In this document: positions 1 through 16,500 of the stretch, piece by piece
Layout: each line of letters opens with the position of its first letter
How positions within the stretch are numbered: position 1 is the first letter of the stretch
Made by a program: the position numbers and the translations under genes
Virus record (IMG/VR): IMGVR_UViG_3300020171_002008
Coordinates: 1 to 40,448 of that record
DNA: 40,448 bases
Strand: one strand, 5' to 3'
DNA from: a virus
The notes under the pieces: model-generated
Database searches by the model: none
The model's input: the letters and a program-made list of their open reading frames with translations, nothing else
Told to the model about the DNA's origin: nothing

Positions 1-53
1 AAAAACAACGTTTCGATGAATTCTTTAAATCATATGGTTGGAAATTAGTTTGA
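1..53 (+). CDS. 3' end of an upstream gene (partial)
   Basis: The frame starting at base 3 is open from the window edge to TGA at 51-53 and gives a C-terminus reading KQRFDEFFKSYGWKLV, which looks like a real amphipathic protein tail. The stop lies 20 bases before the next start. By phage gene order this could be the end of a portal or other head gene, but nothing in 16 residues can show that. A second frame is also open to a stop at 46-48, so the frame choice is a judgement. Confidence 0.4.
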   Translation, partial: KQRFDEFFKSYGWKLV

Positions 54-73
54 TATTGAAAGGAGGTTTTTTT

Positions 74-364
74 ATGCTTCCAGATTTTAACATCTTACGC
101 GAGTATGGTCTTGCAATATTTTTAGTACTAGTTATAGTTGGTCTTTTTACTTATTTATTAAAGACAATAATTAAACAGTGGACGGAACAGTCACTAACTT
201 TTACCTCAATAATTCAGAATCATTTAACACATTCTACTCAGGCAATGAATGATACTTGTAAGATTTTGACAGACATGAAGGGACAGTTGAATAACGCTGA
301 AGAAGCGCATCGAAGAGAGAGAACTGAACATGAAGATATTCTCAGGGAAGTGAAATCAAAATGA
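74..364 (+). CDS. Small single-span membrane protein with coiled-coil tail
   Basis: This 96-residue protein has a hydrophobic segment at about residues 11-33 (YGLAIFLVLVIVGLFTYLL), followed by a charged helical tail rich in E, K and R that is likely coiled coil. I chose ATG at 74 rather than TTG at 38 because AAAGGAGG sits just upstream at 59-66. The stop overlaps the next gene as ATGA. Size and topology fit phage holin-like or spanin-like proteins and other small inner-membrane proteins, but there is no diagnostic motif and no lysin beside it, so the function is unknown. Confidence 0.7.
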   Translation: MLPDFNILREYGLAIFLVLVIVGLFTYLLKTIIKQWTEQSLTFTSIIQNHLTHSTQAMNDTCKILTDMKGQLNNAEEAHRRERTEHEDILREVKSK

Positions 365-3300
365 AGGGAATCTATTTAATTTCTAATCAAGGAACTTTGA
401 TAATTGAAGGCAAGAAAACTCTAATAGTCAAGAAAAAGAAGATACCTGAAGACTATTTGGATAAGGAAGTTTATCTTTGTCAAGATGATTTAGTTCTCGG
501 CATTATAAAATTAAGCAATGAAAAAACTATTACTCTTAAAGAGTTTGAAGAGTTGAAAGACAAGCATTTGATTTCTGAAGAGGATAGGAAATCCTGGTGG
601 AAAGACGCAGAAAGTTTATATGCTTACGATGTGAAGATAGTAGAAAAATTTGAAAAGCTCAAGAAATTCGAACATGAACAAGGTGTTCAAAACTACATTC
701 AAGAAGTGAAATTTAAAAAAGAAATCACTACAACAGATGATATCGATCATTTGGAAGTCTTATATGATGCCGAGAAACTTCATTTAGAGGAGTTTAAAGC
801 TACAGGAATTGATGGTGATCTCAAACATCCTAAAACTAAATACAAGCAACTCCTAGCGGATTTGCGTTATTTAGAGAATGGAGGTTATCCCAAACTCAAG
901 GCAAATGAAAAATGGGGAGATTGGGATTTAAAAACATTACTGGAATATTTTGCCAAAGTCATTGACGCTCTTAGATCTATTTACATGCCGTTGATGCCTA
1001 AAGACGACAAGAATTCTTTTTGGAACTGTTATCGTGAGGCAGAACAATATATGAAATCAAAGCCACCGAAAGAAGAAGAAGTTGCTGAGTGGGACAAAAA
1101 ACGCGAGAAGTTAATCAAATCAATTTCAGATGGTCAGTACGTGGTCTGTGAAGATTGTGATGTTGAAATAGATTATCTGGGTACAATAGAATGTGCTATG
1201 GGGGCTATCGCATGTCCAAACTGTAAATCAATTATAGACCAATATGGGTCATTACTAAACAAGAGATATGATCCGATAGCCCCCGCTAAATTAGAAAAGT
1301 TAACTGATGAAGAGTTGAAAGCAGCACATAAAGAAGCGCATAAAATATGGCAATTATATGAATCAGGCAAATTTAAAGATCTGGAACTTTTAGTCAATAA
1401 TCATATCTTGATAGTTCAAGAAATGTTGCGTAGAAAGATTAAACATGAAAAAGAAGATAAACTTGATGAAGAGTCATTAGAATTTAATCGGGATTATGAT
1501 AAAGATGAAAAAGAACTTCTTTTTAAGCATGAGGAGCTTCATTCTTTTGACTTTGCAGAAGAAGATAATTTCTATGATTTCAAATCTGTTTTAGAGAGAC
1601 ATGATGAAATAATTAAGTCTCTGGAAAATTTTGATATTCAGCATAATTCTAAAGAAGATTTCTTGGATGATTATGTCGAATTTATGAAAAGAAGAAGTAA
1701 TCTCGCTGCAGTTCATCCATCGGGCAAACATAATAAACACAGAGAAGTCATTAAATTAGAAGAAGTACTGCCATATTTCAAAAGTTTTAAGTTGCGTTCG
1801 CCTTTTATATATCTGACAGGTGGATTAACTAATAATGAGCAGACTACAAATGATATAGATATTCTTATCAATTGTACTCAAGAAGAACTCGATAAGATCC
1901 CTTTATTTCAAATGCTTACCTGGCGATTGATGCGTTCATTGCCCAGACGATATTGGAAGAAAATTCAGTTCTTATCAAATAAATGGCAAGGTCCAATCAC
2001 AAATAATATACCTATATATGAACTTGCTTGTTTAAGAACTAATTTAGATAATAAAATTTTTCAAATGTCGCATCAAGATAATGACGAAGAATTTATAAAA
2101 GCATTGATCAGAACGAAAAATCCGAAATCTGAAAAACAAGCACAAAAAGCGAAAAGAGAAGATAAAGTAACGCTGGGAGAATTTTTCTTGCCTCAAAAAC
2201 CAATGCGTGGTGCATTTGAAAATCAAAGAATGACGGTAGATAGTTTTTTGTCTCTATTCAAAGAAGAAGATTACCCAATCTATAATAGTTCAAAACGAGA
2301 TGGTTTTCATAATATTTTAATCAAAGATAAAGATAAAGTTACAATTTTTTCGGAAGATGGTAGTGAGACAACCAAGCGTTTTCCAACTTTAGTTAAAGAG
2401 ATTTCAAAACTAAACATTAATCAATGCGTTTTGCTGGCAGAAATAGAGATGTGGATAGAAAAAATTCATCAACCACGCGAAGTAGTATCAGGTTATGCGC
2501 ATTTGAAATCAGAACCTGATGACAGTTCAATTGTTGCCAGCGTTTATGATTGCGTTTTTTATAACAAAGATGTTCATGATCTTAGTTTTGAATTGCGTAA
2601 ACAACTTTTAGACAAGTTAAATTTTAGGCAATCTACAAATGGCATACCTAATGTAGATATTAAGTTGAATAAGATCCCGCACTATCGCTGCAAGAACAAA
2701 GAAGAACTGAGAAGAACTACTGAAAAACTTCGTAATATCGAATCTTCAGAAGGTGTTGTTGCTTCAATGGCTAAAGCAACTTATAATCTTGCGGGAAAAC
2801 GATCGGGAAGTTTGAAGTTTCATAATAATGCTGCGATCAGTGTTGTGGTATTAGATAAACAAAAAACGAAAATTCCGGGGACATCGAACTACTATTATGG
2901 CGTCGAAATCGAGAAAGAGAAAGTTGATCGCAATAGAGTTAAGAAGATTGGTTCAAATAATTATCTATTGCTGGGAAAAACTTTTTCAACAACTGCAAGC
3001 ATGAAGACAGGTGATAAATTCATTTTAGAATTTGAAACTTTGAATGTTGAATATCATGAAAAGACAGATGAACTTAAACTTACTTGTTGGGTGCCACGAT
3101 TTATCCAAGAAACAAATGAAGCAGTTGATACTATAAAATCAACAATCACCGCAGCGAAAAAAGAAAATCATGTTTTGCAAGAAAAAGATGTGCTTGAGAC
3201 AGGTGAGATTATATATAAGAGTGTTGAGTTTGAGAAACAAGATCCTTATGAAATAATTCCAGAGGAAGAAGATGCACCATATAAGTATACTGTTCAACAC

Positions 3301-5805
3301 CATGCACGCGGGAAGACAATTCACTCGGATTTAAGAATTGAAAGTAAAGATAAGAAATTTTTAATCGGCTGGACGATTATGGATCTTATAGAAGGAAAAA
3401 TAAAAGATCCAATTTTAACAATGAAGGATGCAGCAAAAGCAAACTCTGAAGACAACTTTAAAATTGAATGGAATAAAAAACCTGTAAAAGTAAAGATGCG
3501 CAGAACAGCTGCAGGAAATATTGTTCCGGCAGAAATACGTTCGGCAACCAAAGCCGCTGAGCCATCGGCTTGGCTAGATGTAACTGGTGTAACTAAACCC
3601 GGTGAAGTCGGTGCAACAAAAGATTTTCCGGGTGTATTTACAATGATCGATAAAGGAACTGTTGAGTATTTGGCCCAAAAACCGTATTTTAAGGAGTTGT
3701 GGTTTAGTAATCAAGGTAAACTTCAGGGACGCTGGATCTTTCGTCAGATTTCAGAATATAGACGAGAAGAAAAAACTAAAGGAATATTGCCAGCATCTTT
3801 ACCGCCTGAACGACCCGAAACGTCAGGTTTCTTTTGGGTATTAATTCAGCCTATTGATCAGGTTCCTTACGTCCTTGGGGCTAGAGCCATAGAAAAAAAC
3901 TGGGTGCCACCAGTTCGTTATTCAGCATTGCCACAAAAACTCAAGAAGAAAGTTTCTTCGGAGTTTCAATATTGGAAAGCCGCAAAAGAATCAGATCGCA
4001 TCAGAATCAGAAACAGTTATGTCGAGTGGTTAAAAGAAAATAAGCAATATGATGAACTTAAGAAATGCGGTGCAATTGATATATCTGAAGGGCAACGACC
4101 AAGAATAGATGAAGTAATGATTTTGAGCAGCTATCTGAGTTGTGAAATAAAAGATATATTCCCGAAAATAATTTCAATCCCAAGAGTTAGAGCTGGAAAT
4201 TATTTTGACTCATTGGTAGAAAATACAAAGAATTGTACTTTGGTCGAGATACGAAATTTTGCAAGTTGTGAGATACCTCCTATATATGAAGAAATACAGC
4301 TAAAGAAAAATTTGGTCAAACCCTTTTTGATTGAGGGATTTTATTTCTTTCATGATGAAGAAAAGCAAACGCCATTCATAGTTCAGGTTGCACCTGTTTG
4401 GGGTGGATTTATCATAAAGATAATCTCCCGTACAAGAGATAAGGATTTCAATCTGGAATTATCAAAAAAGATTGAACAGTATGCTAAAGATAATAACATG
4501 TTGAAGGGGGAAAAATTTACGATTTCGGGAGAATTTATAGATGCACATAATTTGACTTGGGAAGATCTTAAATTAAGTACAACTATAAAAGAAAGACTTA
4601 AACATCTAGACTACTTAATCCAAAATAATGAAGATGGTTTAGCATCGCGTGGTCTTTTATTTCTCGGTCCGCCTGGTTGTGGTAAAACACTAACTGGCAA
4701 AATTTTATCCAACTCAAAACCCACTTTCATTTGGATTACATCAAAAGATTTTGCATATACAAGTGTTATAGGAGCAGTTACTACTGCTTTTAGTTTAGCA
4801 AGAGAATTAAGTCCAACAATTATATTTGCAGAAGATATTGATTCTTACATCAGTAGGGAAGTGGTAGATGTATTGAAAACAGAACTTGATGGGCTTCAAC
4901 TCAATAAAGGGGTATTTACGGTATTAACATCAAATTTCCCTGAGAAGTTACCAGAAGCATTAATTGATAGGCCTGGCCGTTTTCATGATGTGTTATATTT
5001 CAGTTTGCCAAATGAAGAAGTCAGAAACGAAATGTTTTCACATTTCTTGAAAAATGAAGAATATGATCCAGAAATTTTAGAAGTTTTAGTTAGAAAAACA
5101 AATGGATTCTCGGGTGCTCATATAAAAGAAATCTGCGATTTTGCAAAGATAATCAAAAAAGAAGATAATGTTTCTTTAGCAAAAGCATTAATGACTTCTT
5201 TGGATAAAGTTATAGAACAAAGAAAATTAATTGCAAGTTTCAAAAATAATCATGAAAATCAATTTAATAGATTTATTACTGAAGATGAACTTATGAGTAA
5301 AGCAATTGGTACTTTTAAATTTGTTCTTCAGCATCATTGGTTCAAACGTTGGAATTGGAAAGAAGATAAGCCCGTCATAGTTGTGAGATCTGGGGCTAGT
5401 GAAGAGCACTGGGATCTTCGCATAGATACCGGTGAAACATCAATTATGCATTGGGTATTAGATAATGATCCGCGTGAAGTTGCAAGCACAACTGCTTTAT
5501 ACAAACCTTGTAATGATAAGTCTTCTATGGATAAAGGTAAGCCAAATGAGAATAAAGATTATTTGAAGCCCGGTACTTCAGAATGGAACCCTACTAAAGA
5601 TACAAGGGCTTGGCTCGATCTTGAAGATTCTGGTGAAGCAATAATAACTATTGACAAACCTATGTTCAAGAGAGTAGAATTAAGAGGCAAAACATTAAAA
5701 GGACTTTTTACTTTAGAACGTGAGGATGAAAAATCTGATTTTTGGATTTTGTCTAAAGCAAAATTACCTGAAACAAAGAAAACTGAGGAGGTGACGAAAA
5801 AATAA
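361..5805 (+). CDS. 1,814-aa multidomain protein: zinc ribbon, nucleotidyltransferase, ATP-dependent ligase, two phosphoesterase domains, AAA+ ATPase
   Basis: Domains read in order. A zinc ribbon (C263, C266, C285, C288). A Pol-beta-type nucleotidyltransferase (GG at 487-488, DID at 498-500). An ATP-dependent ligase core with motif I KRDG (K645), motif III AEIE near 693-696, IIIa VYD 728-730, IV EGVV 797-800 and V lysine near K819, then a probable OB fold (about 835-930). A LigD-like 3'-phosphoesterase domain (H981, H988, D990, R992). An AAA+ ATPase (Walker A GPPGCGKT 1436-1443, Walker B FAEDID to D1494, sensor TSN, DRPGR 1536-1540). A second phosphoesterase-like domain (H1658/H1659, H1683, D1685, R1687). 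LigD-family proteins repair breaks by end cleaning and sealing; that role here is inference. It overlaps the upstream gene (ATGA) and the prohead protease (TAATG), so it is co-expressed with the head genes. No frameshift was seen. It may be packaged or processed. Confidence 0.85.
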   Translation: MKGIYLISNQGTLIIEGKKTLIVKKKKIPEDYLDKEVYLCQDDLVLGIIKLSNEKTITLKEFEELKDKHLISEEDRKSWWKDAESLYAYDVKIVEKFEKLKKFEHEQGVQNYIQEVKFKKEITTTDDIDHLEVLYDAEKLHLEEFKATGIDGDLKHPKTKYKQLLADLRYLENGGYPKLKANEKWGDWDLKTLLEYFAKVIDALRSIYMPLMPKDDKNSFWNCYREAEQYMKSKPPKEEEVAEWDKKREKLIKSISDGQYVVCEDCDVEIDYLGTIECAMGAIACPNCKSIIDQYGSLLNKRYDPIAPAKLEKLTDEELKAAHKEAHKIWQLYESGKFKDLELLVNNHILIVQEMLRRKIKHEKEDKLDEESLEFNRDYDKDEKELLFKHEELHSFDFAEEDNFYDFKSVLERHDEIIKSLENFDIQHNSKEDFLDDYVEFMKRRSNLAAVHPSGKHNKHREVIKLEEVLPYFKSFKLRSPFIYLTGGLTNNEQTTNDIDILINCTQEELDKIPLFQMLTWRLMRSLPRRYWKKIQFLSNKWQGPITNNIPIYELACLRTNLDNKIFQMSHQDNDEEFIKALIRTKNPKSEKQAQKAKREDKVTLGEFFLPQKPMRGAFENQRMTVDSFLSLFKEEDYPIYNSSKRDGFHNILIKDKDKVTIFSEDGSETTKRFPTLVKEISKLNINQCVLLAEIEMWIEKIHQPREVVSGYAHLKSEPDDSSIVASVYDCVFYNKDVHDLSFELRKQLLDKLNFRQSTNGIPNVDIKLNKIPHYRCKNKEELRRTTEKLRNIESSEGVVASMAKATYNLAGKRSGSLKFHNNAAISVVVLDKQKTKIPGTSNYYYGVEIEKEKVDRNRVKKIGSNNYLLLGKTFSTTASMKTGDKFILEFETLNVEYHEKTDELKLTCWVPRFIQETNEAVDTIKSTITAAKKENHVLQEKDVLETGEIIYKSVEFEKQDPYEIIPEEEDAPYKYTVQHHARGKTIHSDLRIESKDKKFLIGWTIMDLIEGKIKDPILTMKDAAKANSEDNFKIEWNKKPVKVKMRRTAAGNIVPAEIRSATKAAEPSAWLDVTGVTKPGEVGATKDFPGVFTMIDKGTVEYLAQKPYFKELWFSNQGKLQGRWIFRQISEYRREEKTKGILPASLPPERPETSGFFWVLIQPIDQVPYVLGARAIEKNWVPPVRYSALPQKLKKKVSSEFQYWKAAKESDRIRIRNSYVEWLKENKQYDELKKCGAIDISEGQRPRIDEVMILSSYLSCEIKDIFPKIISIPRVRAGNYFDSLVENTKNCTLVEIRNFASCEIPPIYEEIQLKKNLVKPFLIEGFYFFHDEEKQTPFIVQVAPVWGGFIIKIISRTRDKDFNLELSKKIEQYAKDNNMLKGEKFTISGEFIDAHNLTWEDLKLSTTIKERLKHLDYLIQNNEDGLASRGLLFLGPPGCGKTLTGKILSNSKPTFIWITSKDFAYTSVIGAVTTAFSLARELSPTIIFAEDIDSYISREVVDVLKTELDGLQLNKGVFTVLTSNFPEKLPEALIDRPGRFHDVLYFSLPNEEVRNEMFSHFLKNEEYDPEILEVLVRKTNGFSGAHIKEICDFAKIIKKEDNVSLAKALMTSLDKVIEQRKLIASFKNNHENQFNRFITEDELMSKAIGTFKFVLQHHWFKRWNWKEDKPVIVVRSGASEEHWDLRIDTGETSIMHWVLDNDPREVASTTALYKPCNDKSSMDKGKPNENKDYLKPGTSEWNPTKDTRAWLDLEDSGEAIITIDKPMFKRVELRGKTLKGLFTLEREDEKSDFWILSKAKLPETKKTEEVTKK

Positions 5806-7202
5806 TGTCTAAAGTAGCAATACCATTTGAAATTGAATTAGATCTTTTGAAAACAAAAGAAGAAAATGGCGTTTGGTATGTTGAAGGTTTTTGTGCGTCT
5901 ACTGAGATAGATCTGCAAGGGGACATAATTACTGAAAATGCTTTCAAAAAATCAGAACAAGATCTTATTGAGAACTCAACTGTACTCTGGAATCACGACG
6001 TGAATCAAGTGATTGGCAAAGTTGCTGAAACAGAAGCTCGAAAAGAAGGTCTTTGGGTAAAGGTCTTGATCAGTAAAACAGTGCCTGAGATATGGCAGCG
6101 CATAAAAGAGGGAGTCGTAAATAAGTTTAGTATTCGGGGTAAAATTATAGATGCGGTGAGAAAATTTGTGAAAGAAGTGAACAAAGTCGCAAATGTTATC
6201 AATGAAATGTATTTAGTTGAAGCATCTTTAGTATCACTGCCAGCGAATCCTGCAGCTAAAACATTGCGTTGGTACATTGAAAAATCTTTAAATGATTATT
6301 TTGCGAAGGGAGGTGAAATTCCTGAGATTCGCAACAACATTGCGAAAGGAGAATCTATGGTAGAAATTCTTGACATGTTAACAAAGATGAGTGAAAGATT
6401 GATTGCAGATGAAGATAAAGCTATTCTCGAAGAGATAAAAGGCAAGATTAAAGAAAAATATCCTTACCCTTATCCTAAAAAGAAAACGGGAGAAGCTTTT
6501 AAGCAAGAAGAGATAGATAGTTTGGAGGCAGAACTTGAAAAAGTTAAAAAGCCAAAGAAAGTTGAAGAACTTACAGAGGAAGAAATGAAAGCTGTAGTTG
6601 ATTTGGCTGATGAAATAAGAAAACAGAAAGCAGATAAGTATCCTTATCCTTATGTGGCTCCTAAAAAGAAATCGGGCGAAACCTACAAGCAAGAAGAAGT
6701 AGATGTGCTTGAAGCAGAACTCGAAAAAGCTAAGAAACCGAAGAAGATCGAGGAACTGATAGAAGAAGAAGAAAAAGCAATAGTTGCTTTAGCTGATGAA
6801 GTTAGAAAAGTGAAAGGCAAAGAGAAATATCCTTATCCAGTTGATGAGGAAACAAAAAAGACAATAGACGAACTTGAGAAAGCGAAAGCGAAAATTGAAG
6901 AAAAAGTAAAGTCTCTCGAAGCTGAAATAAAGGGTTTAAAGGCGGATGCTGAAGTAGAAAAGAGATTTAAGAGTGTGCAACATAATTTCAGTGATAGTGA
7001 AGTAATTAAAGTGAAGGCAATACTTAAGAAGTCTGTGCTTGGTGAAACTTTAACAATTGATGAAACTCAAGCGATTGCTAAAATGGCGCCTAGTTCTCTC
7101 TTTGTAGGTACGAGCGTTGAATCTATTTTGAAGAATATGAGTTCTGAAGACAGAGAAAATTTAATTAAACTTGGTGGTATCAAAACAAAAGTTAAAAGTT
7201 AA
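5805..7202 (+). CDS. HK97-type prohead protease fused to a repeat-containing probable scaffold
   Basis: The N-terminal ~170 residues match the HK97-family prohead serine protease: NHD at 63-65 (catalytic H64), FSIRG with S109, and EASLVSLPANP with E139, which fit the known H/S/E layout. The family cleaves scaffold and capsid N-termini during head maturation. The C-terminal ~250 residues are lysine- and glutamate-rich helix or coiled coil with two ~60-residue tandem repeats headed by KYPYPY, and look like a fused scaffolding (delta) domain. The protein has 465 residues against roughly 200 for a protease alone. The start is backed by GAGGAGGTG at 5785-5793 and overlaps the stop of the upstream gene by one base. 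Confidence 0.9.
   Translation: MSKVAIPFEIELDLLKTKEENGVWYVEGFCASTEIDLQGDIITENAFKKSEQDLIENSTVLWNHDVNQVIGKVAETEARKEGLWVKVLISKTVPEIWQRIKEGVVNKFSIRGKIIDAVRKFVKEVNKVANVINEMYLVEASLVSLPANPAAKTLRWYIEKSLNDYFAKGGEIPEIRNNIAKGESMVEILDMLTKMSERLIADEDKAILEEIKGKIKEKYPYPYPKKKTGEAFKQEEIDSLEAELEKVKKPKKVEELTEEEMKAVVDLADEIRKQKADKYPYPYVAPKKKSGETYKQEEVDVLEAELEKAKKPKKIEELIEEEEKAIVALADEVRKVKGKEKYPYPVDEETKKTIDELEKAKAKIEEKVKSLEAEIKGLKADAEVEKRFKSVQHNFSDSEVIKVKAILKKSVLGETLTIDETQAIAKMAPSSLFVGTSVESILKNMSSEDRENLIKLGGIKTKVKS
6456..6840 (+). repeat. In-frame tandem repeat, 180-189 bp units, in the scaffold part
   Basis: Unit 1 starts at 6456 and unit 2 at 6636 (60 residues later); a third, truncated copy of the KYPYP head starts at 6825. 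Each unit has KYPYPY, a KKK-(T/S)-GE motif, KQEE, LEAELEK, KKPKK and a final LADE-(I/V)-RK helix. The copies differ at many codons, so this is an old duplication and not an assembly artefact. Confidence 0.9.
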
Positions 7203-7621: not shown

Positions 7622-7645
7622 ACTTGAAAGGAGGTGAAAAAAGTT

Positions 7646-8665
7646 ATGGGAGATTTAACTCGTGGTTATACAACGACTGACAATATAGAATTAAATGAAG
7701 TTCTCTACGGCACAGTATTGCCGATAGTTGAGTTATATAATCAAGAAGAAGTGCTTGATTTGAGAGCTTTGCTTTGTTCAGATCATGACGAGAGTTATAT
7801 CAAGTTCGATGCGAGTGGTCAATGGAAATTTCAGAAGTTAGGTGAATCTGAAAAACCCGCTTCGCGTAAAAAAGTCTGGGGCAAGATGCAAAAAGATACA
7901 GCGAAATATGGTCTTGACATAGGATATACTTTCGATTGGTTGATGAGTGAAGTAGCTAGTTCTGAAGAGATCACTCGTATGGCCAATAAAGCTATCAATA
8001 GAGATAGAGCTCTTCAAACAGCAGTGATTCTTGAAGAATGTTTGACAAGCGGTGGATTTTTTAATGGTTCGTTTGGTGCAGATGAAAAAATGACATTACC
8101 TCCTACTTATGGAGCGAATACCTTTCTAGCAGCTCATACCCATTATGTAGCTTCTGGTTCTGCAACTATAACTCTAGCGACAATCACAGCGATGAAATTA
8201 CACATCAAAGAACATGGTTTTAAGGGCAGAATCTGGGGTTTAATGAATGCCGATATGACAAAAAATGTCGAAGATTTAGCCGGTTGGTATGGAGCTAGTG
8301 CCGGGACGACTACTCTACCGGGAGTTGTAGTTGATAATGTGGCGATAGAAGGTTTTGCGGGTAAACTCTTGGGTATAGAGTGGAAAGAAACTGAATGGAT
8401 GCCAACAGATTATTTATTTATTTGTGGTATTCAAGCTGAAGGTGGTGAAAAACCAGCAAGATATATTCAGAAGAAAAATCCTTCTGCGAAAGGATTGATC
8501 TTAACACCTGGTAGCTATGATCCAAAGTATCCAATCATAGATGCAGATTATATTCATTGGTTAGAAGCATTGATAGTTCTTAGAGGAGCCGGTGTTGTTT
8601 ATCAATTAACTACTGGCGCTTATTCAAGTCCGACAATTACTACTAATGTAGTCGAAGCCGATTAG
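7646..8665 (+). CDS. Probable major capsid protein
   Basis: This 339-residue protein is encoded directly after the protease-scaffold and decoration genes and just before a strong terminator, the normal place of an HK97-fold major capsid protein. It has an acidic helical N-terminal region, a Gly/Thr-rich centre and a beta-rich C-terminus, fitting the family by length and composition. I take ATG at 7646 as the start: the in-frame GTG at 7634 lies inside GAAAGGAGGTG (7626-7636), which is the ribosome binding site for 7646. The strong ribosome site fits high expression. The fold itself cannot be proved by eye. Confidence 0.8.
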   Translation: MGDLTRGYTTTDNIELNEVLYGTVLPIVELYNQEEVLDLRALLCSDHDESYIKFDASGQWKFQKLGESEKPASRKKVWGKMQKDTAKYGLDIGYTFDWLMSEVASSEEITRMANKAINRDRALQTAVILEECLTSGGFFNGSFGADEKMTLPPTYGANTFLAAHTHYVASGSATITLATITAMKLHIKEHGFKGRIWGLMNADMTKNVEDLAGWYGASAGTTTLPGVVVDNVAIEGFAGKLLGIEWKETEWMPTDYLFICGIQAEGGEKPARYIQKKNPSAKGLILTPGSYDPKYPIIDADYIHWLEALIVLRGAGVVYQLTTGAYSSPTITTNVVEAD

Positions 8666-13145: not shown

Positions 13146-14369
13146 ATGACAAAAATTGAAAAGTTTAAAAAACATATAAAAAATCATTGTTTAATATGCA
13201 AAAAAATTATGTCTTTTTCAAAATCCAAGCGCAAAAGAAAATTCTGTAGCCGAAAATGTTTTTATGAATCACGAAAATATAGAGTTAATACAAAATGCGA
13301 TTTTTGTAAAAAATCAATTATCAAAAGACTGAACGTTTATAAAAAATTAAAACATCATTTTTGCAATAGAGAGTGTCATTTTAAATTTAGTCTTAAATTC
13401 AGAGTCAACTGTGATACTTGTGATAAGATTTTGTATCCACATCCTTATAAAAGAAAGAGAAACAAACATTATTTTTGCAGTCGAAAATGTTTTCATAAAT
13501 TTACATCAGGGGTTACTATGATAGAAGTTACTTGTTTTTTTTGTAAAAATAAATTTCAAATTCAAAAATATCGTAGAAAAAACCAAGAAAGATTTTTCTG
13601 CAGTCGAAAATGTTTCTATAAATTTCTAGCAAAAAATAAAAGTAAAACGATTATCTGTCTTGAATGCAAGAAACAATTTCAAGTTCAAAAATGCATTTTG
13701 AAATTAGGAAAAGGTAAGTTTTGTAATAAAGAATGTTTTTCGAATTATCATTATAAAGAATTTCCATGTTTTTTTTGTGGTAAAAAAATACGCAGAAGGA
13801 AATCTCGTTTAAAAAGTAAACGCAAGATAGGGAGATTTTGTTCAAGAAAATGTTTTGGAAAATGGGAATCCAAAAATATAGTAGGAAAGAATCATCATAA
13901 TTACAATAAAAAAGAAAGGAGATGTGCTTTCTGTAAGAAAAAAATATTGGTTCTTAACTTCGCAGTTAAAAAGAACAAAAATTCTTTTTGTGATAGAAAA
14001 TGCTATGGAAGATGGCAGTCAAAATATCGGGTTGGTAAGAATAGTCCTTGCTGGGTTAATGGTAATTCCTACCAAGAATATCCAGCTGAGTTTAGCGGTT
14101 CACTCAAAGAATTTATTCGAAAAAGAGATCAATATAAGTGTCAGAATAAAAGTTGTGGAATTCCACAGATAGAATGTCTCCAAAAGTTACACATACATCA
14201 TATAGATCATAATCGTAAAAATAATGATTCTATAAATTTAATTGCTTTGTGTCTGAGATGTCATACTAAAGCTAATCGTGATCGTAAATATTGGCAAGCT
14301 TATTATGAAAACATTCAAATCGAACGAAAGGTTCATGAATTGGAAAAATACTATTTGGAAAAATTATAG
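13146..14369 (+). CDS. Free-standing HNH endonuclease with seven zinc fingers
   Basis: This 407-residue, very lysine-rich protein has seven tandem fingers of the form CxxC-x(15-19)-CxxxC (first three at C15-C38, C51-C77, C89-C115; the rest to about residue 290), resembling TRASH/MYM-type fingers. The C-terminal HNH nuclease (about 310-390) has FIRKRDQYKCQ, the HIHHIDHNRKNN core and LCLRCH. The HNH family cuts DNA and often acts as a homing endonuclease; the finger array would read a long target. It lies between a methyltransferase and a CgeB-like transferase, with a second homologue 2.3 kb on. It has no part in sugar chemistry and is probably a selfish element. Confidence 0.9.
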   Translation: MTKIEKFKKHIKNHCLICKKIMSFSKSKRKRKFCSRKCFYESRKYRVNTKCDFCKKSIIKRLNVYKKLKHHFCNRECHFKFSLKFRVNCDTCDKILYPHPYKRKRNKHYFCSRKCFHKFTSGVTMIEVTCFFCKNKFQIQKYRRKNQERFFCSRKCFYKFLAKNKSKTIICLECKKQFQVQKCILKLGKGKFCNKECFSNYHYKEFPCFFCGKKIRRRKSRLKSKRKIGRFCSRKCFGKWESKNIVGKNHHNYNKKERRCAFCKKKILVLNFAVKKNKNSFCDRKCYGRWQSKYRVGKNSPCWVNGNSYQEYPAEFSGSLKEFIRKRDQYKCQNKSCGIPQIECLQKLHIHHIDHNRKNNDSINLIALCLRCHTKANRDRKYWQAYYENIQIERKVHELEKYYLEKL

Positions 14370-15486: not shown

Positions 15487-16500
15487 ATGAAAATCAAAAC
15501 CAAATGCGATTATTGTAAAAAAATAATTTTGAAAAGTAGATATTCTATGCATAAACAAAAGCATCATTTTTGCAATAAGCAATGTATGGGTTTATGGCGT
15601 TCAAAATATCATGTGGGTAAATATAATCCATTATGGAACCATGAAAGAAAAAAATGTTATTATTGTGGTAAAACATTTTTTCAAACAAAGTATAGAATTA
15701 AGCGTGCTAAACGTCATTTTTGTTGTGATCAATGCCTTAAAAAATATAGGAAAAAAAATTCTGGGAAATACATTATATGTGATTATTGTGGTAAAAGAAT
15801 ATTTAAATTGTCTTATAATATCAAAAATAGTAAGAATCATTTTTGTAATAGCAAATGTATGGGGAAATGGCGAAGTAAGAATTGGGTAGGAGAAAATACC
15901 CCTTTTTTTAAAAAAAAGAAAGTAAAATGTGATTGGTGTGGTAAAATAAATTATAAGCATCCGAGACATTTTAAATTAAACAAACATCATTTTTGTAATA
16001 GTCAATGTTATGGTAAATGGCGTAGCAAGAACATGATTAGGAAAAATAATCCTAGCTGGAGTTCTGTAAGAGTAAAGTGTACATACTGTAAAACTCAATT
16101 TTTTAGGAAGCGATATAAGTTTGCTAAATTTGGACATCATTTTTGTAATGAAATATGTTATAAAAAATGGATTGAAGTGAATGAAAATAAACCAGGTTGG
16201 ATTGATGGTTCTTCATTTGAACCATATACATCAGAATTTAATAATGAATTAAAAGAATTTATTCGTAAACGAGATAATTACATATGCCAAAACAAAAATT
16301 GTGGAATTCCACAACAAGAATGTAGGACTAAATTGGATGTACACCACATAGATTATAACAAAGATAATTGCGACCCAATAAATTTAATTGCTTTATGTCA
16401 TTTGTGTAACGCAAGAGCTAGTGGTGATCGTGAATATTGGAAACAATATTACCAAAAAATACAAATTGATAGAAAAGTGCACGAATTGGAGAAACTATGA
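15487..16500 (+). CDS. Free-standing HNH endonuclease with five zinc fingers
   Basis: This 337-residue homologue of the gene at 13146 has five CxxC-x(15-17)-CxxxC fingers (CDYCKK...FCNKQC and similar) spaced by ~38-45 residues, often followed by GKWRSKN. The HNH nuclease at the C-terminus has EFIRKRDNYICQ, VHHIDYNKDN and LCHLCN. Its last residues (RKVHELEKL) repeat those of its homologue. It lies between two CgeB-like genes and overlaps the second by ATGA. The different finger number from its paralogue suggests finger gain or loss changes target choice. Confidence 0.9.
   Translation: MKIKTKCDYCKKIILKSRYSMHKQKHHFCNKQCMGLWRSKYHVGKYNPLWNHERKKCYYCGKTFFQTKYRIKRAKRHFCCDQCLKKYRKKNSGKYIICDYCGKRIFKLSYNIKNSKNHFCNSKCMGKWRSKNWVGENTPFFKKKKVKCDWCGKINYKHPRHFKLNKHHFCNSQCYGKWRSKNMIRKNNPSWSSVRVKCTYCKTQFFRKRYKFAKFGHHFCNEICYKKWIEVNENKPGWIDGSSFEPYTSEFNNELKEFIRKRDNYICQNKNCGIPQQECRTKLDVHHIDYNKDNCDPINLIALCHLCNARASGDREYWKQYYQKIQIDRKVHELEKL

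Follow-up and report, generated by a model that had tools for sequence, protein, structure and literature searches.

Why would a virus place a DNA ligase and DNA-end-processing domains in one giant protein among the genes that build its head? The question is raised by a linear IMG/VR record of 40,448 bp with a G+C content of 32% (positions 1 to 40,448 of IMGVR_UViG_3300020171_002008), analysed over its whole length and called the window here. Its giant gene encodes 1,814 residues and joins a nucleotidyltransferase (NTase) domain, an ATP-dependent DNA ligase, two LigD-type phosphoesterase (PE) domains, PE1 and PE2, and an AAA+ ATPase, with the prohead protease and major head genes downstream. 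With the window included, its family comprises 70 unique loci; most come from contigs of uncultured viruses, and the archaeal virus ANMV-1 is among them. By analogy with known polyvalent proteins, we suggest, with a probability of roughly 0.55, that this is a head-associated, probably packaged protein for DNA-end processing and ligation, which would be injected to tend the incoming viral DNA.

Domains of the giant protein

The giant frame is open without an internal stop, as the earlier note had read it from the letters alone, and on the sequence a frame of 1,814 codons arising by chance at 32% G+C is not credible. Mis-assembly of separate genes was considered and rejected. The search for the same domain set in viral contigs, which the earlier note had proposed, found it in more than 50 other contigs, and mis-assembly is also ruled out by an 86%-identical contig (locus L118) with the same order of PE1-AAA-PE2, protease and major capsid protein (MCP).

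The ligase domain is confirmed by profiles and by AlphaFold and Foldseek (PF01068, 1.7e-13; PDB profile, 2e-13; Foldseek to DNA ligases, 2e-18). In the AlphaFold2 (AF2) model the pLDDT is above 90 across most of residues 640-950. The relatives keep the catalytic Lys (50/52), Asp and Gly (51/52 each), the Glu of motif IV (50/53) and the Lys of motif V (52/53). At one locus (L005:3-3314), an intein-like insertion splits the ligase right after the catalytic motif (KVDGWR/C...HNC).

PE1 and PE2 are confirmed, by profiles and by modelling, as LigD-type PE beta-barrel folds. The Pfam scan gave no adequate match for either domain (LigD_N at 0.05 on PE2 at best); profiles of the family against archaeal LigD-type PE structures gave 1.5e-3 for PE1 and 8e-7 for PE2. 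The AF2 model that spans residues 951-1814 has good confidence in PE1 and PE2 but not in the AAA+ domain. The top five Foldseek PDB matches of this model are all LigD-type PE structures, ranking ahead of any AAA+, with target-normalised TM values of up to 0.80. Structure prediction by segment, which had been suggested as a check, returns the expected folds for the ligase and for both PE segments.

The active site of PE1 is altered. A canonical PE uses six residues, H40, H46, D48, R50, H82 and Y86 of the Methanocella enzyme (PMC4797286). PE1 keeps four of the six, and across the family these are close to invariant (His 61/62, His 64/64, Asp 64/64, Arg 63/64). The canonical His/Tyr pair is replaced by E1067 and W1071, which an alignment to 3p4h places opposite H82 and Y86; in 30 relatives the Trp is invariant and the Glu is found in 23. 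In the Methanocella PE, the H82A change removes 3'-phosphatase and annealed-end activity and retains the removal of flap nucleosides (PMC4797286). Since the equivalents of H82 and Y86 are replaced in PE1, and since H82A keeps flap nucleoside removal, we predict that PE1 is an altered end-trimmer, which probably trims 3' nucleosides, perhaps on flaps, instead of removing 3'-phosphates. The description of the protein as repair-type, with 3'-phosphate removal, is not supported for PE1, where both phosphate-positioning residues are missing. The doubled LigD-like phosphoesterase of the earlier note stands as two folds, though not as two conserved sites: the metal-site residues of PE2 are intact in the window, but roughly half of the relatives have lost the site.

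The NTase domain is likely, not proven, to be of the Pol-beta type. Its GG..DID motif is conserved in the family (G 51/51, Asp 52/54 and 51/54), though the third acidic residue of the Pol-beta superfamily is not clearly placed, and its PDB profile matches are to Pol beta/TdT alone and are weak (E 0.04 to 0.4). Of the Pol-beta-type polymerase that had been proposed, the NTase part is retained, and the domain is not shown to be a polymerase. The ASCH/PUA-like assignment of the N-terminal domain is weaker than that of the NTase. Between these two domains, the zinc ribbon claimed earlier is present as a motif, and a similar CxxC pair aligns in locus L123, with low model confidence for the window's own.

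The AAA+ assignment was correct (PF00004, 1.8e-17; phmmer against the PDB, 1e-36 to Cdc48/p97), and in the viral fold library the significant matches are of the AAA type only. Walker A, Walker B, the sensor 1 Asn and the Arg finger are all present and are conserved in four relatives. The window and these four relatives also share a Walker B order of ED, not DE. The AAA+ region, used in a scan, finds L118 (85-86% identical), and because the same PE1-AAA-PE2 arrangement followed by protease and MCP is seen there, the insertion is real.

Association with the head genes

The family was found by profile-guided scans of viral contigs and genomes, with near-identical contigs removed. The whole window protein, used as a query, found no relative in viral contigs, and profile-based scans were needed. 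The usual gene order is TerL, portal, (MuF), one or more multi-enzyme genes with NTase-ligase-PE1-PE2, protease and MCP. A portal lies upstream in 39 of the 46 loci that have more than 3 kb of upstream sequence. A prohead protease domain is fused to the multi-enzyme protein in 29 of 70 loci, and 13 others, among the 59 loci that extend more than 1.5 kb on the downstream side, have an unfused protease there, no more than 6 kb away. The profiles behind the portal and protease counts were built from a small number of seeds, several of which Pfam or PHROG confirmed, and the counts are probably lower bounds. The fused protease is XkdF/Peptidase_S78_2 by Pfam (E 1e-18 to 1e-30) and occurs with ligase or D12 methylase domains. 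The portal is involved as well, for that of L026 and L027 (portal by PHROG, 7e-17) bears a fused ASCH-like domain at its C-terminus.

In the window, the TAA of the giant gene and the ATG of the protease gene share one base (TAATG, 5803-5807), and a ribosome site of the AGGAGG type lies directly upstream of the protease start. On the PE1 tree, the sister of the window is L011 (support 97/84), where the order is portal, MuF and NTase-Lig-PE1-PE2-XkdF, the protease being fused. The distribution of fused and unfused states on this tree requires nine changes, of which at least six are forced by supported branches. Repeated fusion and fission of this kind imply that the association with the head was retained throughout, and the link to the prohead protease that was first seen in the overlap is strengthened.

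The enzymes in these proteins are exchangeable. A Dam-type methylase module is found in 26 of 70 loci, and in L041-L043 and L045 it lies between PE1 and PE2, the slot of the AAA+ domain in the window. In L008, a 2H phosphoesterase domain (2'-5' RNA ligase superfamily) lies next to a Dam methylase in a second multi-enzyme protein of the head module, encoded nearby (L008:4265-7459). From the composition of the loci, ligase and PE are separable modules.

Relatives of the AAA+ domain are found in two further settings. In L119-L122, on contigs of up to 175 kb, a shorter protein consists of NTase and ligase remnants and AAA+; the AAA+ motifs are intact there, and no PE was found alongside. In the distant contigs L123 (3504-6332) and L124 (2452-5001), a single protein has a prohead-protease domain (PHROG head maturation protease, 4e-6 and 3.5e-7) and then an AAA+ domain 39% identical to that of the window, with a portal gene before it and a Phage_capsid gene after it. 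Since AAA+ follows the protease domain in one protein in these two loci, the link to the head protease extends to the AAA+ domain. The phage records searched showed no fusion of this kind, and their AAA+ matches are FtsH-like proteins or AAA ATPases; in the two contexts inspected, no annotated capsid, portal or head-protease genes lay nearby. We read the AAA+ domain as a putative ATP-driven remodelling element of the head apparatus or of its cargo.

Among 19 large records of relatives, 16 have exactly one ATP ligase, the one in the head module, and the other three (those behind L048, L072 and L080) have no recognisable ATP ligase. No match to an NAD ligase was found in any of the 19. Of about 350 genomes sampled from each phylum of Archaeoglobales and Dehalococcoidia bins, few gave matches to the family.

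Table 1. Features of the giant gene and of its neighbours in the window.
Feature	Position (nt)	Residues	Strand	Basis or remarks
Small ORF	74..364		+	Single transmembrane-like segment; polar tail, probably coiled; AGGAGG site ahead of the ATG
Giant multi-enzyme gene	361..5805		+	ATG start; 1,814 aa
N-terminal beta-rich domain, ASCH/PUA-like	364..702	2-114	+	Pfam ASCH E 0.02; AF2 pLDDT mostly 72-91
Middle region, mostly helical	751..1689	131-443	+	Sequence; AF2 helical, low confidence
Zinc-ribbon-like motif	1147-1224	263-288	+	CxxC-x18-CxxC; sequence, low model confidence
NTase domain, likely Pol-beta type	1702..2280	448-640	+	GG487-488, D498/D500
ATP-dependent DNA ligase core and OB-like part	2269..3180	637-940	+	K645 (KRDG), E797 (SEGVV), K819
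PE1, LigD-type PE fold	3241..4071	961-1237	+	H981, H988, D990, R992 kept
Domain preceding the AAA+ core	4099..4530	1247-1390	+	Conserved with AAA+ in L118, L119, L123, L124
AAA+ ATPase	4531..5280	1391-1640	+	GPPGCGKT, FAEDID, TSN, RPGR
PE2, second LigD-type PE fold	5308..5781	1650-1807	+	H1683/D1685/R1687 kept
S78 prohead protease gene	5805..7202		+	Pfam 1.8e-9; PHROG head maturation protease 5e-23
Major head protein gene	7634..8665		+	PHROG 2.8e-36

The neighbouring genes of the window add some observations of their own. The end of the small open reading frame (ORF) before the giant gene overlaps the start of that gene by 4 nt (ATGA, 361-364), which couples the two in translation, and a similar small transmembrane ORF sits upstream of the family gene in L065. 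Right after the major head gene, about 30 kb on one strand (9204-39853) form a sugar and surface-glycan cluster with glycosyltransferases, several nucleotide-sugar epimerases of the phrog_540 type, methyltransferases, radical SAM proteins, an aminotransferase and a FabG-like reductase. These genes may serve the modification of a capsid or host-surface glycan. The capsid gene of L005 is likewise directly trailed by glycosyltransferase- and methyltransferase-like genes. Two related HNH endonuclease genes (phrog_1271; 13146-14369 and 15487-16500) lie within the cluster of the window, and one of them bears MYM-type zinc-finger-like repeats.

Comparison with LigD and with polyvalent proteins

The window protein resembles LigD and the archaeal ligase-PE-polymerase set of the AP-NHEJ system (PMC8656161, PMC4797286) in having an ATP-dependent ligase, with KxDG and an OB part, and a PE fold in one protein, and PE1 retains the H, H, D and R residues of the PE metal site. 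It differs in several respects. A Pol-beta-type NTase takes the place of the AEP primase-polymerase, for which there was no Pfam match either in the window protein or among those relatives that were scanned; this contrast with LigD had been drawn in the earlier note and holds. There are two PEs, PE1 is without the His/Tyr pair, and the family gene lies in a viral head module with AAA+ or Dam inserted. No Ku was found, as had also been noted: none was recognised among the window genes scanned with PHROGs and Pfam, and a Ku profile had no match in the records of the 19 large relatives. Because the six-residue PE site, an AEP polymerase and Ku are all missing, the family is partly LigD-like by sequence and is not classed as LigD.

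Polyvalent proteins are a closer parallel. As described in PMC5512222 (Iyer et al. 2017), these are large multidomain proteins beside the head genes of portal-terminase viruses, with exchangeable enzyme modules. The same paper argues that such proteins are packaged and injected, and notes their paucity in archaea. The family fits them in its head-gene location, multidomain size and exchangeable modules, including methylase, 2H phosphoesterase and Pol-beta NTase, and its packaging is proposed by analogy. It differs from the proteins of that paper in that text searches of it gave no LigD-type PE, no DNA ligase in such proteins and no XkdF.

The closest named relative is from the virus ANMV-1, whose presumed hosts are methane-oxidising archaea (PMC4372165). 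Its 'ATP-dependent DNA ligase' (KP703175, AJP62006) is annotated as a ligase only, has the order NTase-ligase-PE1-PE2 and sits between the portal and a protein with a minor-head-like C-terminus. It is the only ligase-PE homologue among 50,697 phage records. In contrast to the window protein, it has 866 aa and no ASCH-like or AAA+ domain, and its PE2 metal site is lost. Despite its annotation as a MutT-like phage hydrolase, the ANMV-1 gene at 1913-3193 (L002) encodes a portal protein (Pfam Phage_portal_3, 3e-22). The XkdF/S78 proteases of cultured phages and haloviruses occupy the same slot, TerL-portal-(MuF)-protease-MCP, but are small proteins without ligase or PE in the copies inspected. Open-licence papers gave no description of this DNA-ligase/PE family. 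Thus, the novelty of a ligase/PE family in the head module is probable, not certain.

Proposed role and its rivals

Proteins fused to a prohead protease or located beside the portal can be enclosed in the head. This background, together with the argument made for polyvalent proteins (PMC5512222), makes a packaged enzyme kit the most likely role, and packaging and injection are suggested by the synteny and by the protease and portal fusions. The multi-enzyme protein would be produced with the prohead protease and the capsid protein, and its connection to the protease/portal region would bring it into the prohead as cargo. It would then enter the next cell together with the viral DNA. There, the ligase, the LigD-type 3'-end domain and the NTase would tidy and seal nicks and ends of the incoming genome before the virus makes its own proteins. 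In some viruses of the family the methylase would protect the incoming DNA, and AAA+ would act on DNA or on capsid-internal proteins. The role is supported by the folds, the intact ligase residues, the PE1 metal site and the conserved head-module location, and further by the repeated protease fusion, the portal fusion of the N-terminal domain and the interchangeable modules (Dam methylase, AAA+). A fuller version, in our view less likely than not, is that of a virion-carried, Ku-less end-processing and ligation machine made with the head maturation apparatus, in which AAA+ would be an ATP-driven protease-like or remodelling machine inside the prohead.

Several points weigh against the packaged kit. 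The window begins too late to show a portal, since the contig starts 73 bp before the ATG of the small ORF. PE and protease occur without a ligase in eight loci (L048, L068, L072, L076, L077, L080, L083 and L085), and the L119-L122 lineage has a dead ligase and NTase, with the catalytic Lys and the DID motif lost, and no PE found. Because of these ligase-less and dead-ligase members, ligation, as read from the sequences, is not a universal function of the family. The ligase is the sole one found in these records, so that it might also serve replication in general, or late repair. In addition, a 200-kDa protein must fit in the head and be ejected, perhaps only after cleavage. Such cleavage by the prohead protease, implied when the product was first called a polyprotein, is possible.

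The alternative that survives best, although we regard it as unlikely, is that the protein acts in head assembly or packaging. The ligase and PE would heal nicks and ends of the concatemer, AAA+ would remodel the scaffold or protease, and no injection would be needed. This would account for a gene between portal and protease, for the 29 protease fusions, for AAA+ fused to the prohead protease in L123/L124 and for AAA+ being retained while ligase and NTase decay in L119-L122. However, the Dam methylase and 2H phosphoesterase modules are better suited to protecting incoming DNA. A less probable alternative is that the PE folds are mainly structural: they would be beta-barrel adaptors tethering cargo to the protease or portal, and the enzymes would be passengers. 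The persistence of PE1/PE2-protease after ligase loss, the loss of the PE2 metal site in about half of the relatives and the replaced His/Tyr of PE1 agree with it, but if there were no catalysis, it would be difficult to account for PE1 H/H/D/R residues that are nearly invariant across more than 60 loci. Least probable is an ordinary viral ligase with end-healing domains for replication or repair that merely lies in a late operon: its intact catalytic residues speak for this, as does the finding that 16 of 19 large records have no other ATP ligase and that no NAD ligase was found, but the location is conserved across many deeply diverged contigs, fusions to head protease and portal recur, and ligase-less members occupy the same place.

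If the protein is packaged and injected as we propose, the idea of head-packaged multi-enzyme effectors would extend to DNA end processing and ligation. It would also come to include viruses whose hosts are uncultured and in part archaeal, a group in which such effectors were thought to be scarce. With the fusion of AAA+ to the prohead protease, capsid maturation would have an unusual component that consumes energy. PE1, with its changed active site, represents a separate branch of a superfamily of repair enzymes, and its biochemistry can be predicted. Lastly, the repeated fusion to the head protease makes how and why viruses load enzymes into their heads directly testable.

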